DNA of 64,000 nucleotides. Origin: Antiquaquibacter soli. GTDB taxonomy: Bacteria; Actinomycetota; Actinomycetes; Actinomycetales; Microbacteriaceae. Both the position numbers and the translations under genes were made by a program. Within the stretch, counting starts at the first letter, position 1, and every line of letters starts with the position of its first letter. Positions 13,012 through 40,859 of the stretch are shown piece after piece. The notes beneath the pieces were generated by a model. It saw only the letters and a list, made by a program, of their open reading frames with translations, was not told the DNA's origin and searched no databases. The DNA is taken from NCBI RefSeq assembly GCF_030580675.1, contig NZ_JAUQUB010000001.1, positions 62,001-126,000 on the forward strand, read 5' to 3'.

Positions 13012-13922
13012 CCCGCCCCGAGCGAAGCATCGCCCGACTGACCACCGGCGACGAGGAGTTCCGCGCCAAGTTCCGCTCGTGGAACCACGCGTACCTCTCC
13101 TACGTCGACATCGAGGAGTACCTGAAGACGAAGGACACCATCCTCGTGCCGATGGCCTCGACCGAGCAGCACGGGCCGCACCTGCCGCTCTACACCGACA
13201 CGATCACGGCGATCGAGATCTCGGAGCGCATCTCCGAGCACATCGGCGTGCTGCACACCCCGCCGCTGTGGGCCGGCTACTCGCCGCAGCACATGTACGG
13301 CGTCGGGCAGGGCCGGGGTACCGTCACGCTGCGGGCATCCACCCTCCTCAACCTCATGAACGATGTCGCCCGCAGCCTCATCCACCACGGCTTCAACCGC
13401 ATCATCTTCATCAACGGGCACGGCTCGAACACGAAGGTCGTCGACCCGGTGCTGCGCAAGCTGCGCTACGAGACCGGGGCGCTCATCTCGTTCGTGAAGC
13501 CGTTCATGGAGCGCTACACCGGCATCCTCGAGGGGCTCATGGAGAACCCGCCGGAGGAGACCCCGGGCTGGCACTCGAGCGAGCTCGAGACCTCGCAGGA
13601 CATGGCGTGGAACCCCGACCTCGTCCGCATGGAGCGCGCCGTCGACACCCGCGCGCACACGCCGGCGTTCCTGCCCGACGCGTTCAAGAAGAACGACGGG
13701 ATGCCCGACACCGAGTTCGAGGGCTACCAGTACTTCACCTTCCCGATGGACCACCACGAGTTCGTCGAGAACGGCATCATCGGCAACCCGATGCGCGCCA
13801 CCGCGGAGAAGGGCGAGGAGGCGTTCCGGCGGTACTCGGAGCACGTCGCGCGAGGCATCCTCGAACTCGAGAAGGTGCCGGTCGAGGTGCACCACCGGGA
13901 GTTCGTCGACCGCACGATGTGA
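13008..13922 (+). CDS. Creatininase-family metal-dependent amidohydrolase
   Basis: Creatininase-family enzymes use two metals to open cyclic amides or cleave amide/formamide bonds; MftE and ArfB are relatives. The 304-residue protein keeps the metal motifs: PMASTEQHGPHLPLYTDT (about 47-64), IFINGHGSN in the middle and the acidic HSSELETSQ region. Its role here is unknown, because nothing else in the operon is a typical creatine, mycofactocin or flavin-synthesis gene. Its start overlaps the UPF0261 stop by four bases, and the GntR gene follows about 50 bases later. Confidence 0.83.
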   Translation: MTRPERSIARLTTGDEEFRAKFRSWNHAYLSYVDIEEYLKTKDTILVPMASTEQHGPHLPLYTDTITAIEISERISEHIGVLHTPPLWAGYSPQHMYGVGQGRGTVTLRASTLLNLMNDVARSLIHHGFNRIIFINGHGSNTKVVDPVLRKLRYETGALISFVKPFMERYTGILEGLMENPPEETPGWHSSELETSQDMAWNPDLVRMERAVDTRAHTPAFLPDAFKKNDGMPDTEFEGYQYFTFPMDHHEFVENGIIGNPMRATAEKGEEAFRRYSEHVARGILELEKVPVEVHHREFVDRTM

Positions 13923-13938
13923 GGCGCCGCGGGAGGCC

Positions 13939-13944
13939 TATAGT
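13939..13944 (+). promoter_or_regulatory. Possible -10 box for the GntR gene
   Basis: TATAGT lies 28 bases before the GntR start in an otherwise GC-rich gap. No convincing -35 box is visible. A four-codon ATG reading frame (13961-13975, MDAR then stop) lies between it and the GntR start and overlaps that start as ATGA; whether it is translated is unknown. Confidence 0.35.
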
Positions 13945-13971
13945 GGGGCAGGCACAAGGAATGGACGCACG

Positions 13972-14643
13972 ATGACGATCGAGGAAGCGGGCTCGCGGGT
14001 CGACACCGCGTACGAGTGGCTGCTCGCGGAGATCACGGCGTTCCGCATCCGGTCCGGTGCCCCGCTGTCGGAGAACCGCATCGCGAACCAGCTCGGCATC
14101 AGTCGCACTCCGGTGCGCGAGGCGCTGCAGCGGCTCGAGAAGGAGGGGCTCGTCAAGCGCACCGACAACGCGCGCTTCGCGGTCTCGCAGCTCACCATCC
14201 AGGAGGTCAACGACGCGTGCGATCTCCTCGAGGCCCTCGACACGTACGTGTGCCGCAAGGCGTCGAGCAAGCTCACGCCCGACGACATCGAGCTGCTGAA
14301 GGCGTCCGTCGCCGAGATGCAGCGCGCGGCGGCGGCGGATGACCGCAACTCCTGGTCGGCCGCCGACCTCGCGTTCCACCGCACCGTGAACACCATCGCG
14401 GGCAACCAGCTCGTCGCGGACACCGTCAAGGAGACGAGGCGCCGCATCCAGCGGTTCTGGATGCGCGCCGCCTCCCTCCAGTCGAGGCTGCAGGCCTGTT
14501 CGCAAGAGCACCTGGTGCTCGCGAACGCGATCATCGCCCAGGACTACGAGGCGATCGAGCCGGCCGTGAAGGAGCACATCGGCCACATGCGGCAGCGTAT
14601 GGTCGAGATGCTCGAGACCGCGGCGGCCCTGCTGGGCGATTGA
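13972..14643 (+). CDS. GntR-family regulator with FCD domain
   Basis: The 223-residue protein has a winged helix (LGISRTPVREALQRLEKEGLV at about 42-62) and an all-helical FCD ligand domain with the Asp/His metal pattern (DLAFHRTV; later QEHLVLANAI and AVKEHIGHM). FCD regulators usually repress sugar-acid or organic-acid genes and bind short palindromes with a central GTnnAC-like core. The matching palindrome CTTGTATACAAG and its relative lie in the promoters at 9182 and 17107, so it is the likely controller of both the upstream operon and the LIV-type transporter. Confidence 0.9.
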   Translation: MTIEEAGSRVDTAYEWLLAEITAFRIRSGAPLSENRIANQLGISRTPVREALQRLEKEGLVKRTDNARFAVSQLTIQEVNDACDLLEALDTYVCRKASSKLTPDDIELLKASVAEMQRAAAADDRNSWSAADLAFHRTVNTIAGNQLVADTVKETRRRIQRFWMRAASLQSRLQACSQEHLVLANAIIAQDYEAIEPAVKEHIGHMRQRMVEMLETAAALLGD

Positions 14644-14651
14644 CTGCTGAA

Positions 14652-14675
14652 GCGAAGCCCATTTCTGGGCTTCGC
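14652..14675 (+). terminator. Hairpin after the GntR gene
   Basis: Perfect 9-bp stem (GCGAAGCCC / GGGCTTCGC) with a 6-nt loop, nine bases after the GntR stop. No U-run follows, which is common in high-GC actinobacteria. It is probably a terminator of the plus-strand operon. Confidence 0.6.
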
Positions 14676-14686
14676 CGGAGTCAATC

Positions 14687-14711
14687 GCCGACGCCCGTCC
14701 CGGGCGTCGGC
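14687..14711. terminator. Second hairpin between convergent genes
   Basis: Perfect 11-bp stem GCCGACGCCCG / CGGGCGTCGGC with a 3-nt loop, between the two converging transcription units. It may terminate in either direction. Confidence 0.55.
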
Positions 14712-14738
14712 TAGGAGATACCCCCGGTCGCCCTCTCT

Positions 14739-14800
14739 GCCGAGTGTTCCGATTTGGTCGGTAAGCGAGGCCTTATAGCGACCAAATCGGAACACTCGGC
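14739..14800. repeat. Perfect 22-bp inverted repeat (18-nt spacer) between convergent genes
   Basis: Arms 14739-14760 and 14779-14800 are exact reverse complements. Each arm reads GCCGAGTGTTCCGATTTGGT then CG towards the centre. The arms are AT-richer than the surroundings. The element is the third hairpin in this gap and resembles other long inverted repeats in the window whose outer ends read CGAGTGT. It could be a bidirectional terminator or a small mobile repeat. Confidence 0.85.
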
Positions 14801-14824
14801 GATTCGAGCGGCGCGTGCGCCGCG

Positions 14825-15832
14825 TCAGTCCTTCGAGGCGAACGCGTCGTCGAACGAGCCGGTCGGCACGGTCCACAGGAGCGAGCGCACGTAGGCGAGT
14901 CCGGCGGGCGCGCCCTCGAGGCGGTCCATGCCGGCGTCCTCCCACTCGACCGAGATCGGGCCGGTGTAGCCGATCGAGTTGAGGGCGCGGATGCTGTCCT
15001 CCCACGGCACATCGCCGCGACCGGTGGACACGAAGTCCCAGCCGCGGCGGGGGTCGGCCCACGCGCGGTGCGAGCCGAGCACACCGTTGCGGCCGTTGCC
15101 CATCCGCATACGGGTGTCCTTGCAGTCGACGTGGTAGATCCGGTCGGCGAAGTCGAGGATGAACGCGACGGGGTCGAGGCCCTGCCACACCATGTGCGAC
15201 GGGTCCCAGTTGAGGCCGAAGGCCTCGCGGTGGTCGATCGCCTCGAGCGTCTTCACGGTGGTCCAGTAGTCGTAGGCGATCTCCGACGGGTGCACCTCGT
15301 GGGCGAAGCGCACGCCCTCGGAGTCGAAGACGTCGAGGATAGGGTTCCAGCGGTTGGCGAAGTCCTCGTAGCCGGCGTCGATGACGTCCTGGCCGACCGG
15401 CGGGAACATGGCGACGTACTGCCAGATCTTCGAGCCGGTGAACCCGACGACGGTGTCGACGCCGAGTTTGCGCGCGGTGATCGCGGTCTTCTTCATCTCC
15501 TCCGCGGCGCGCTGGCGCACGCCCTCGGCGTCGCCGTCGCCCCACACCTTCGCGCCGACGATCGCCTGGTGGCGGAAGTCGATCGGGTCATCGCACACGG
15601 CCTGGCCCTTGAGGTGGTTGGAGATGGCGTAGAGCTTGAGCCCGTACTTGTCGAGCAGGTCGAGGCGCGACTTCGCGTAGTCGTCGTCCTCGGCCGCGCG
15701 CCACACGTCGAGGTGGTCGCCCCAGCAGGCGAGCTCGAGGCCGTCGTAGCCCCACTCGCTCGCGAGCCGGGCCACCTCCTCGAGGGGAAGGTCGGCCCAC
15801 TGGCCGGTGAAGAGGGTCACGGGATGCGTCAT
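14825..15832 (-). CDS. Xylose-isomerase-like TIM-barrel sugar isomerase/epimerase
   Basis: A 335-residue member of the AP-endonuclease-2/xylose-isomerase-like barrel family. Recognisable metal-site segments are [33 protein letters not shown] and [11 protein letters not shown], following the usual E-D-H-E order. ATG 15832 is chosen because GAGAAGGAGCAGCA precedes it; the longer open frame runs into the upstream gene. It follows the Gfo/Idh dehydrogenase by 49 bases, the standard pairing in which a dehydrogenase makes a ketosugar and the barrel enzyme epimerises or cleaves it. The substrate is unknown. Confidence 0.86.
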
Positions 15833-15881
15833 TGCTGCTCCTTCTCGAGAGGGGTGGGACTTTTGTCGAAGATCGTCATAA

Positions 15882-17057
15882 CTACTCTGCCACGCGAACG
15901 GCCTGGCTGCTCCTGCGAGATGACTCCTCGATCGCGGCGAGCACGCGCTGAACGCGCAGCCCGTCGGCGAACGAGGGGCTCGAGGGGGTGTCATCCCGGA
16001 TCGAATTCAGGAACTCCGCGAACTGGTGCACGAACGTGTGCTCCCAGCCGATGATGTGGCCGTCCGGCCACCACGCCCCCACCCACGGGTGGTCGGCCTC
16101 GGTGACGAGGATGCGGCGGAAGCCCTGCTCCCCGGCGCCGTCCGCGCCGTCGAAGAACCAGAGCTCGTTGAGGTTCTCCAGGTCGAAGCGGATGCTCCCG
16201 CGCTCGCCGTACACCTCGAGGGTCATCGCGTTCTTGCAGCCGAGCGCGAGGCGGGTCACCTCGAGCTGCACGACGGCTCCCCCGGAGAGGTGCGCGGTGC
16301 CCCAAGCCGCGTCATCCACGGTCACCTTCTCGAGCGCGCCGCCCCCGGTGCCCTTGATGCCACCGTCGCCCGAGTCGCCGCCCGGGCGCTCGCCGATGAA
16401 GGTCGTCACTCCGCCCGAGACGGCGTCGATGCTCTCCCCGGTGACGTGCTGCACGAGGTCGGCGATGTGCGAGCCGAGGTCGCCGAGCGCGCCCGAGCCC
16501 GCGGTCTCCCGGCGGAGCCGCCAGCTCATCGGCGTCGCGGGGTCGTTGAGCCAGTCCTGCAGGTACGAGGCGCGCACGTGGTGGAGCGGGCCGAGCCGGC
16601 CGTCGGCGACGAGTCGACGCGCGACCTCGATCGCGGGGACGCGCCGGTAGTTGAAGTTCACGATCGCGTGCTGGCCGCGGGCTGAGGCCGCCTCGAAGGC
16701 GGCGAGCATCCGCTCCGCCTCCTCCACGGAGTTGGCGATCGGCTTCTCGACGACGACGTGCTTTCCGGCCTCGAGGGCGGCGATCGCGATCTCGGCGTGC
16801 ATGTTGCCGGGGGCGCAGACGTCGATGATGTCGATGTCGTCGCGCTGGATGACCTCGCGCCAGTCTGTCGCGGACTCGGCCCACCCGAACCGGGCGGCGG
16901 CCGCCGCGACGTGCTCGGCGTTGCGCCCGACGAGCACCGCCTGCTCGACGGGCGGCACGTCGAAGTAGGCGGCGACGTTGCGCCAGGCCTGGGAGTGGGC
17001 CTTGCCCATGAATGCGTAGCCGATCGCGGCCACGCGCAGTGTCTTGTACGACGCCAT
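15882..17057 (-). CDS. Gfo/Idh/MocA-family NAD(P)-dependent sugar dehydrogenase
   Basis: 391 residues. The Rossmann motif is [17 protein letters not shown] (about 9-25), the catalytic/cofactor segment is [12 protein letters not shown] (EKP about 100), and the substrate domain contains [21 protein letters not shown] and [15 protein letters not shown], with the conserved His. These features resemble, from memory of the family, levoglucosan- and ketoglycoside-forming dehydrogenases, but only the family is secure. It would oxidise a sugar ring hydroxyl, often C3. ATG 17057 follows GAAGGGACGACG. It is divergent from the LIV-type transporter across a regulated promoter region. Confidence 0.88.
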
Positions 17058-21925: not shown

Positions 21926-21937
21926 CGGACCCGGCCA

Positions 21938-22012
21938 ACCCCGTTTCTCAGGAATATGCTCGCGCCGAGTGCACTATGTCGTCAGTGGCCGCATATTCCT
22001 GAGAAACGGGGT
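21938..22012. repeat. Perfect 22-bp inverted repeat (31-nt spacer)
   Basis: Arms ACCCCGTTTCTCAGGAATAT plus GC (21938-21959) and the exact reverse complement (21991-22012). It starts 13 bases after the LivF-like stop and ends 30 before the SDR start, between two genes on the same strand. It is probably the terminator of the transporter operon, but arms this long and AT-rich are unusual. Arm length is the same as in the repeat at 14739, and its spacer contains GCCGAGTGC. Confidence 0.85.
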
Positions 22013-22030
22013 GGACGGGGCGCACTGGGC

Positions 22031-27135: not shown

Positions 27136-27224
27136 CCTTCCGAAAAGACGGAGATCGCCCCTCCCCGGTGGCTCGTTCCGCCGCGCATCCCTCCGCACTG
27201 CGGGAACTCCGTCTTTTCGGAAGG
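27136..27224. repeat. 18-bp inverted repeat with 53-nt spacer
   Basis: CCTTCCGAAAAGACGGAG (27136-27153) and its exact reverse complement (27207-27224) lie between the IclR stop and the LldR-like promoter, both minus-strand genes. The A-run in one arm and T-run in the other give U-tracts in both transcripts. It may be a terminator for the IclR operon reading towards lldR, or a small repeat element. Confidence 0.75.
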
Positions 27225-36009: not shown

Positions 36010-36043
36010 GCGCGCCGCGCCGCGCCGCCGCCGCGCGGCGCGC
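36010..36043. terminator. GC-only hairpin after the SDR operon
   Basis: Perfect 11-bp arms GCGCGCCGCGC (36010-36020) and GCGCGGCGCGC (36033-36043), six bases after the SDR stop and abutting the longer inverted repeat that follows. It likely helps terminate the plus-strand operon. Confidence 0.55.
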
Positions 36044-36100
36044 GAGTGTGAGGTTGTGGCGGGTCATCCCGGTGCCGCACCCGCAACACCGTCACACTCG
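36043..36100. repeat. 22-nt-arm inverted repeat, CGAGTGTGAGG family, copy 1
   Basis: Left arm 36043-36064 (CGAGTGTGAGGTTGTGGCGG then GT) and right arm 36079-36100 pair with three mismatches around a 14-nt spacer. It lies between convergent genes (SDR and rhamnulokinase). A second copy at 40375-40432 has the same arm length, spacer length and almost the same left arm, so this is a dispersed repeat. Confidence 0.85.
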
Positions 36101-40374: not shown

Positions 40375-40432
40375 CGAGTGTGAGGTTGTGGTGGGTAACG
40401 GGGTGCCCTCACCCGCCACACCATCACACTCG
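40375..40432. repeat. 22-nt-arm inverted repeat, CGAGTGTGAGG family, copy 2
   Basis: Left arm 40375-40396 and right arm 40411-40432 pair with three mismatches around a 14-nt spacer. The left arm differs from copy 1 (36043) by one base. This copy lies upstream of both flanking genes (DeoR minus, PadR plus), so a simple terminator role is unlikely here. Confidence 0.85.
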
Positions 40433-40455: not shown

Positions 40456-40501
40456 GGTATTCAGCGTTACTATGTACTAGTAGTCAGTGACGCTGAATAC
40501 C
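40456..40501. promoter_or_regulatory. Perfect 12-bp inverted repeat before the PadR gene
   Basis: GGTATTCAGCGT (40456-40467) and ACGCTGAATACC (40490-40501) with 22 bases between. A smaller palindrome, TACTA-TGTAC-TAGTA (40468-40482), lies inside. It sits 28 bases before the PadR start and is the likely autoregulatory operator, probably overlapping the promoter. Confidence 0.7.
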
Positions 40502-40529
40502 AGCGACACTCAGTAGTGGAAGGATGCCG

Positions 40530-40859
40530 ATGCCCAAGCAGATCACCGAGATGCTCAAGGGAACCCTGGAGGGCATCGTGCTCGCGATCCTCGCCGGTCG
40601 CGCCGCGTACGGGTACGAGATCACGACGTGGCTGCGCGAGCAGGGGTTCTCCGACATCGCCGAGGGCACGATCTATGCGCTCCTCGTGCGCATCGAGCAG
40701 CGCGGACTCGTCGACGTCGAGAAGGTGCCCTCCGAGAAGGGGCCTCCGCGCAAGGTGTACTCGCTCAACGCCGCCGGCCGCGAGTACCTCGACGAGTTCT
40801 GGAACAACTGGGGCTTCCTCTCCGAGCGACTGGAACAGCTCCGCAAGGAAGGACAGTGA
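40530..40859 (+). CDS. PadR-family transcriptional regulator
   Basis: 109 residues with the PadR winged helix: KGTLEGIVLAILAGRAAYGYEITTWLREQGF, then IAEGTIYALLVRIEQRGLVDVEK and GPPRKVYSLNAAGREYLDEF. PadR proteins typically repress efflux or stress genes and release DNA on binding a drug or phenolic. ATG 40530 is preferred since AAGGA is six bases upstream; an ATG six bases earlier abuts that site. It heads an operon with two DUF1048 genes and a DrrAB-like ABC exporter. Confidence 0.9.
   Translation: MPKQITEMLKGTLEGIVLAILAGRAAYGYEITTWLREQGFSDIAEGTIYALLVRIEQRGLVDVEKVPSEKGPPRKVYSLNAAGREYLDEFWNNWGFLSERLEQLRKEGQ

Follow-up and report, generated by a model that had tools for sequence, protein, structure and literature searches.

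The window, by which we mean the whole stretch of 64,000 nucleotides analysed here, carries a long palindrome between two convergent genes, and this raises the question of what kind of element it is and why its two arms remain complementary. A sequence-only reading had described a perfect 22-bp inverted repeat, the third hairpin between the two genes, and both descriptions were borne out: the arms at 14739-14760 and 14779-14800 are fully complementary over 22 nt, and the other two stems lie at 14652-14675 and 14687-14711. In a repeat search, the arms extended to 25 nt at 96% with a spacer of 12 nt. The heptamer CGAGTGT occurs exactly 6 times in the window, every time as an end of one of 3 palindromes that share an identical outer spacing of 58 bp. 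The palindromes were delimited from their sequence, the putative half-sites from sequence together with the operator geometry of AbiEi and Rv2827c, and the neighbouring genes were named by eye. The features are as follows.

14741..14798, no strand: 58-bp palindromic element of subfamily A, TTCCGATTTGGTCG type, a solo copy between convergent genes; outer G-C/C-G pairs lengthen it to 14739-14800
14741..14763, + strand: left arm, putative 23-bp half-site for one AbiEi-like monomer
14776..14798, - strand: right arm, putative inverted 23-bp half-site, 12 bp from the left arm
36043..36100, no strand: second window copy, subfamily B, GAGGTTGTGGCGGGT, 58 bp
40375..40432, no strand: third window copy, subfamily B, 58 bp
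13972..14643, + strand: left neighbour, 223-aa ORF resembling a GntR-type regulator
14825..15994, - strand: right neighbour, ORF resembling a sugar isomerase/epimerase-like TIM barrel; the true start is perhaps internal

The window also holds other inverted repeats. The hairpins at 14648-14712 are of a different kind from the 58-bp palindrome and have no U-tract; look-alikes at two places of the genome (C8:88721-88815 and C1:804666-804726) keep the CCATTTCTGG loop unchanged with an altered stem (GAAGCCC/GGGCTTC versus GAAGGCC/GGCCTTC). A 23-nt inverted repeat at 40456-40501, 83% complementary, lies directly 5′ of an ORF starting near 40516-40530 and is operator-like, and long inverted repeats with wide loops at 21930-22020 and 27136-27224 (30 nt at 90% and 21 nt at 95%) fall outside the palindrome family. 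A known RNA family at 13900-15400 was rejected, the 3 sub-threshold Rfam matches being taken as chance, as was a DNA uptake signal, given that single heptamers show no excess (6 in the window, every one inside a palindrome, against an expectation of 12).

We searched the whole window genome (G000; 3.22 Mb, 14 contigs) for CGAGTGT-N30..60-ACACTCG and obtained 19 copies, compared with 0 for the reversed control pattern, so that repeats with these ends exceed expectation genome-wide, the point on which the sequence-only reading had staked its family. Seventeen of these copies measure 58 bp and 2 measure 57 bp, the latter being one of subfamily B and one of subfamily C. Allowing up to 2 mismatches at N44 gave 28 places, namely 17 known ones, 3 palindromic ones with one mismatch and 8 with two mismatches that are not palindromic, and the reversed control also yields 8. 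The family in this genome therefore has 22 members, 19 with perfect CGAGTGT ends and 3 with one end mismatch. A covariance model built on the 19 copies was then searched over 27 genomes of the genus, one per species; it matched in 9 of them, always at full length and always at 57 or 58 bp (22 places in G000, 21 in G009, 10 each in G003 and G002, 6 in G022, 4 in G024, 2 in G016 and 1 in G019, plus 2 doubtful, low-scoring places in G026 that were omitted from the composition and flank counts, leaving 76 pooled copies). In the pooled copies, CGAG, arm G17 and arm G20 are the most conserved bases, the conserved end CGAG is paired with CTCG, and 124 of 152 arms have a C three bases beyond the palindrome end. 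Mismatches are frequent at arm positions 13-14, and pairing weakens past position 22. In G022, a tandemly duplicated stretch of about 167 bp (L063:2049-2272) contains two palindromes and lies between citrate synthase-like and dapD-like genes.

The interiors vary by species yet stay paired, with TTCCGA in G000 and G009, TGCCA in 8 of the 10 places of G003 and GCAGTT in most of those of G002. These data confirm one family with constant ends, varying interiors and conserved pairing, as had been suggested from the window copy. The further suggestion of coevolving arms holds in part. If maintenance as a hairpin were the sole cause, partner arms should match each other far better than they match other arms; the excess over random re-pairing is slight in G000 (19.2 vs 18.2 matches of 22) and G009 (19.1 vs 18.4), larger in G003 (19.2 vs 16.2) and not clear in G002. 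Since re-paired arms within G000 or within G009 match nearly as well, most of the pairing comes from both arms being the same half-site, and the arm data favour a single half-site present twice, the pair being copied together to some extent. What stands of the suggestion is the larger change between species and subfamilies, which tracks the sequence of the nuclease gene that the palindromes flank.

That gene, here called AbiEi-Vsr, was bracketed by two palindromes in 3 loci, and in 3 more a palindrome lay beside a homologue. We collected named homologues by scanning GTDB genomes with two peptide patterns and kept the best 80 of 117 loci, which belong to Microbacteriaceae, Micrococcaceae, Dermacoccaceae and unplaced actinobacteria. 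Bracketing was scored without reference to any known palindrome sequence. Palindromes 48-69 bp long in which 16 or more of the 20 outer positions pair were counted as upstream if they fell between -260 and +60 relative to the match start, and as downstream if they fell between -60 and +260 relative to the match end; the thresholds were set by eye before the control was run. Among the best 80 of 117 homologues, a palindrome was found upstream of 58, downstream of 56 and on both sides of 44, compared with 5, 11 and 1, respectively, of 89 other ORFs of the same loci in the same scan (both sides, 44/80 vs 1/89; Fisher p = 3e-17) and with a background of 0.037 per 320 bp elsewhere in the homologue loci. 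For 10 of these 80 genes, neither flank held a palindrome that passed the threshold. Similar counts were obtained for 27 gene loci of the genus (upstream 17, downstream 18, both 15) and for 29 gene loci of a phylum sample (upstream 19, downstream 12, both 12; neither, 10).

The two brackets of one gene also resemble each other. The median number of identical positions between the upstream and downstream arms of a gene is 24 of 29, compared with 13 between genes, and a gene's own partner palindrome was the best or tied-best match in 38 of 45 cases. Arm similarity tracks protein identity (rho = 0.40, Mantel p = 0.001), a correlation to which vertical descent alone could contribute in part. Pairs of palindromes about 1 kb apart had given the idea of a gene cassette with varied cargo, which was rejected, as the AbiEi-Vsr gene is common to only some pairs; other close pairs (L004, L029 and L032) bracket unrelated genes and may reflect chance clustering or local spread. 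One AbiEi-Vsr gene of the window genome lies at C1:188977-189858. Three other AbiEi-Vsr genes of the window genome (L263, L264 and L265) each have their own distinct palindromes on both sides, and at least 5 versions coexist there. No gene bracketed by B-type arms was seen among the copies checked in this genome, so that the copies at 36043-36100 and 40375-40432 are possibly orphans; in S. metalliresistens (G002, L074) a gene is bracketed by arms similar to type B. For the AAAGTGCCG subtype, likewise, no matching gene was present among the copies checked in the window genome.

To characterise the protein, which has about 295 residues, we modelled it with AlphaFold2 on 51 homologues (mean pLDDT 95.8). 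The predicted fold joins a complete AbiEi antitoxin to a nuclease of the Vsr/I-Bth0305I type. When the model was compared with known structures by VIA-align, residues 1-188 matched AbiEi (6y8q; Z 12.0, rmsd 5.9, 175 aligned) and residues 1-198 matched Rv2827c (1zel; Z 9.4, rmsd 3.9, 181 aligned), and the winged-helix plus AbiEi C-terminal domain fold typical of the AbiEi family is thus present in the predicted model over residues 1-198. The C-terminal part matched I-Bth0305I (3r3p; residues 193-296, Z 13.2, rmsd 2.3, 95 aligned), Vsr (1cw0; residues 191-295, Z 10.7, rmsd 2.2, 98 aligned) and NGO0050 (3hrl; Z 12.9). The same 3r3p was the top Foldseek match (E = 0.004) and was matched by HMM comparison (E = 1e-4). 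Pfam places a DUF559/MTES_1575 nuclease domain at the C-terminus and AbiEi matches N-terminal of DUF559, the PADLOC AbiEi models match 3 of 4 proteins (E below 0.003), and an NCBIfam sequence search with the protein returned no family. In a 51-row alignment (51 of the 80 named loci; five with odd ORFs or partial matches, plus others, were omitted) E196, D229, H246 and D255 are invariant, in what we take to be the order expected of the EDxHD motif.

In the phylum sample, 111 of 396 genomes had a match to the protein and, with six proteins as query, the gene was found in 15 of the 27 genus genomes, among which are all 9 genomes with palindromes matched by the covariance model. A search using 14 further palindromes as query added genomes with solo copies; by that search or the covariance model, 12 of the 15 gene-bearing genomes and 0 of the 12 gene-less ones have solo palindromes (Fisher p = 4e-5), a match to which shared descent of the gene-less species may have contributed. 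A 6.7-kb phage record from human faeces, which carries no annotation, encodes a homologue with 29% identity over 93% (MT837503.1:5019-5966). Carriage by phages or plasmids was considered and rejected, just this 1 phage record and 3 Arthrobacter plasmid records, all with weak homologues, having been found.

Occupied and unoccupied versions of the same locus were compared across the genus. DGK and pheA are adjacent in all 27 genomes, and in 7 of them (G000, G003, G006, G009, G016, G022 and G024) a palindrome-gene-palindrome unit lies between the two, with 1083-1176 bp between the stops. In 18 genomes the two stops overlap or lie no more than 91 bp from each other; the gap is 176 bp in G020, where there is an apparent single leftover arm, and 706 bp in G019, where it does not contain the AbiEi-Vsr gene. 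In a protein tree of 46 rows (25 genus loci, 10 added later and 11 of the 80 named loci), the seven DGK-pheA proteins nearly cluster (2 changes; 0 of 500 shuffles as low). A G002 protein from another locus falls among them with weak support (89/36), G002 having no gene at pheA-DGK. Because the seven proteins lie nearly together, the simplest history from these sequences would be one insertion followed by descent, while the flanking palindromes changed in each lineage.

Solo palindromes show the same kind of presence and absence. At the window site, both relatives that retain the convergent gene pair (13972..14643 and 14825..15994), G022 and G017, are without the palindrome. Next to tRNA-Arg(CCT) (L025:7423-7602) a palindrome stands at the same place in G000, G009 and G003, each with the interior of its own species. 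At the tRNA-Phe cluster (L029:8797-8948) palindromes are present in G009 and G003 and none in G000, G019, G016, G006, G022 and G002; the sequence beyond the tRNA is not homologous, and this is therefore no clean unoccupied site. Between glmM and coaA (named by eye, as are the next two genes), a Micrococcales bacterium (L110) carries the gene and G009 a solo palindrome; between gltA and dapD, a Herbiconiux bin (L135) carries the gene and G022 two palindromes in tandem. The palindromes at these two places are of different subfamilies and hence give no support for shared descent. In the shared-site alignments, site C, whose flanks align poorly, was omitted, and the flanks of site B align on one side only.

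Together, the repeat family and its fixed length, the bracketing of a gene by matching palindromes and the presence or absence at shared loci, taken with the predicted fold, are best read as recognition sites of a nuclease-driven selfish element that would resemble REPIN-RAYT with an unrelated enzyme. The palindrome itself is probably a double recognition site, consisting of two inverted half-sites of about 23 bp, about 12 bp apart, for the AbiEi-Vsr nucleases that the same palindromes bracket. According to PMC7319586, AbiEi occupies a pair of inverted 23-bp repeats with 3 bp between them, and Rv2827c binds pairs 13 bp apart. The Rv2827c site would span 23+13+23 = 59 bp compared with 57/58 bp here, an agreement of geometry alone. 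As proteins of this family bind paired 23-bp inverted repeats, binding of the two arms as double-stranded DNA by the AbiEi-like parts of two monomers would fix the total length at 57-58 bp and would make both arms follow the specificity of the protein. The EDxHD/Vsr-type domain could then nick or cut at or near the site, and repair or recombination between palindromes would copy or lose palindrome-gene-palindrome units. A break in a palindrome would leave two arms matching the outer palindromes of a unit, so that repair could copy the unit in, and recombination between the two outer palindromes of a unit would leave one solo copy, such as that in the window. Tentatively, and short of calling it probable, we propose the whole to be a selfish element without a Y1 transposase, in which the free-standing AbiEi-Vsr gene and the scattered 58-bp double half-sites spread and are homogenised together through nuclease breaks and copying, with the specificity of the enzyme and all genomic sites changing in concert.

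Each part of this proposal has a known counterpart. According to PMC3116915, REPINs are similarly inverted pairs of short units scattered between genes, with several subfamilies per genome, each beside one nuclease or transposase gene. Their enzyme is a Y1 HUH transposase and not AbiEi-Vsr. The present palindromes have no unpaired GTAG or CGTC tag, their conserved end CGAG being paired with CTCG and having a C three bases outside it, they are fixed at 57/58 bp, and they would be recognised more simply, as double-stranded half-sites. The repeat works like a REPIN yet lacks two defining features of REPIN-RAYT, the Y1 transposase and the GTAG/CGTC tag. The GTAG- and CGTC-tagged REPs (PMC3733652) are also extragenic palindromes often downstream of genes, with other ends, another length and another gene family. 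The type IV antitoxins AbiEi and Rv2827c share the predicted two-domain fold and the geometry of paired inverted 23-bp repeats (PMC7319586); the protein here differs in its C-terminal nuclease domain, and its repeats flank the gene upstream and downstream and are also dispersed through the genome. With I-Bth0305I (an EDxHD homing endonuclease) and Vsr, residues 190-297 share the fold and the conserved E, D, H and D, while in our case the nuclease is fused to an AbiEi module and its gene stands free between palindromes instead of being intron-borne.

Other explanations account for some of these observations. The protein might mainly be a regulator, the palindromes being operators for autoregulation and a regulon and the nuclease domain serving something else; AbiEi and Rv2827c do repress their own promoters through such repeats (PMC7319586), and a palindrome lies upstream of 58 of the best 80 of 117 genes. 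We nevertheless regard this as unlikely, given the second palindrome downstream of 56 of the same 80 and the fact that most of the 78 places in the genus are not at promoters (29 convergent, 35 tandem and 11 divergent by a crude gene caller). By the same gene caller the palindromes are frequently close behind stop codons and, having a strong stem (-44.5 kcal/mol as RNA), they could have spread as bidirectional terminators without a U-tract or as mRNA-stabilising hairpins. The terminator idea of the sequence-only reading fared poorly, with TTTT within 15 nt in 0 of 152 flanks of 76 copies and no site in a terminator scan of 14500-15000, and the constant 57/58-bp length, the systematic mismatches at arm positions 13-14 and the tie to one gene family also speak against a role of this kind, which seems to us quite improbable.

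The dispersed inverted units, their several subfamilies and the unoccupied sites would also suit REPIN-like elements mobilised by a Y1 transposase, or miniature derivatives of a conventional transposon, with the nuclease gene as a passenger. However, a Y1 transposase (PF01797) matched in 0 of the 27 genus genomes, compared with 5 of 14 control genomes, and was rejected as the mobiliser; moreover, the palindrome sequence goes along with the nuclease gene, and we hold this origin to be very improbable. Least credible is a role in defence, akin to restriction, with the palindromes marking or protecting host DNA: the PADLOC matches and the predicted nuclease fold would fit, but at most a few tens of sites per genome would mark little DNA. 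The reading that we prefer is that of recognition sites of a nuclease-driven selfish element.

No earlier description of such palindromes with DUF559/AbiEi-Vsr nuclease genes was found in the open-access literature, although one may exist elsewhere, and as far as that literature goes, the palindromes flanking these genes in many actinobacteria look like an undescribed kind of selfish DNA element. Until now such palindromes could readily pass for terminators. If our reading is true, scattered extragenic palindromes of actinobacteria would have a second origin, independent of REPIN-RAYT, in a nuclease whose fold is unrelated and whose gene is flanked by its own sites, and a large group of genes named merely DUF559 or AbiEi-like would gain a function. 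It would also provide dozens of natural protein-site pairs for deciphering the DNA code of AbiEi-type domains, and a second system for testing how an enzyme and its many scattered sites change specificity jointly.
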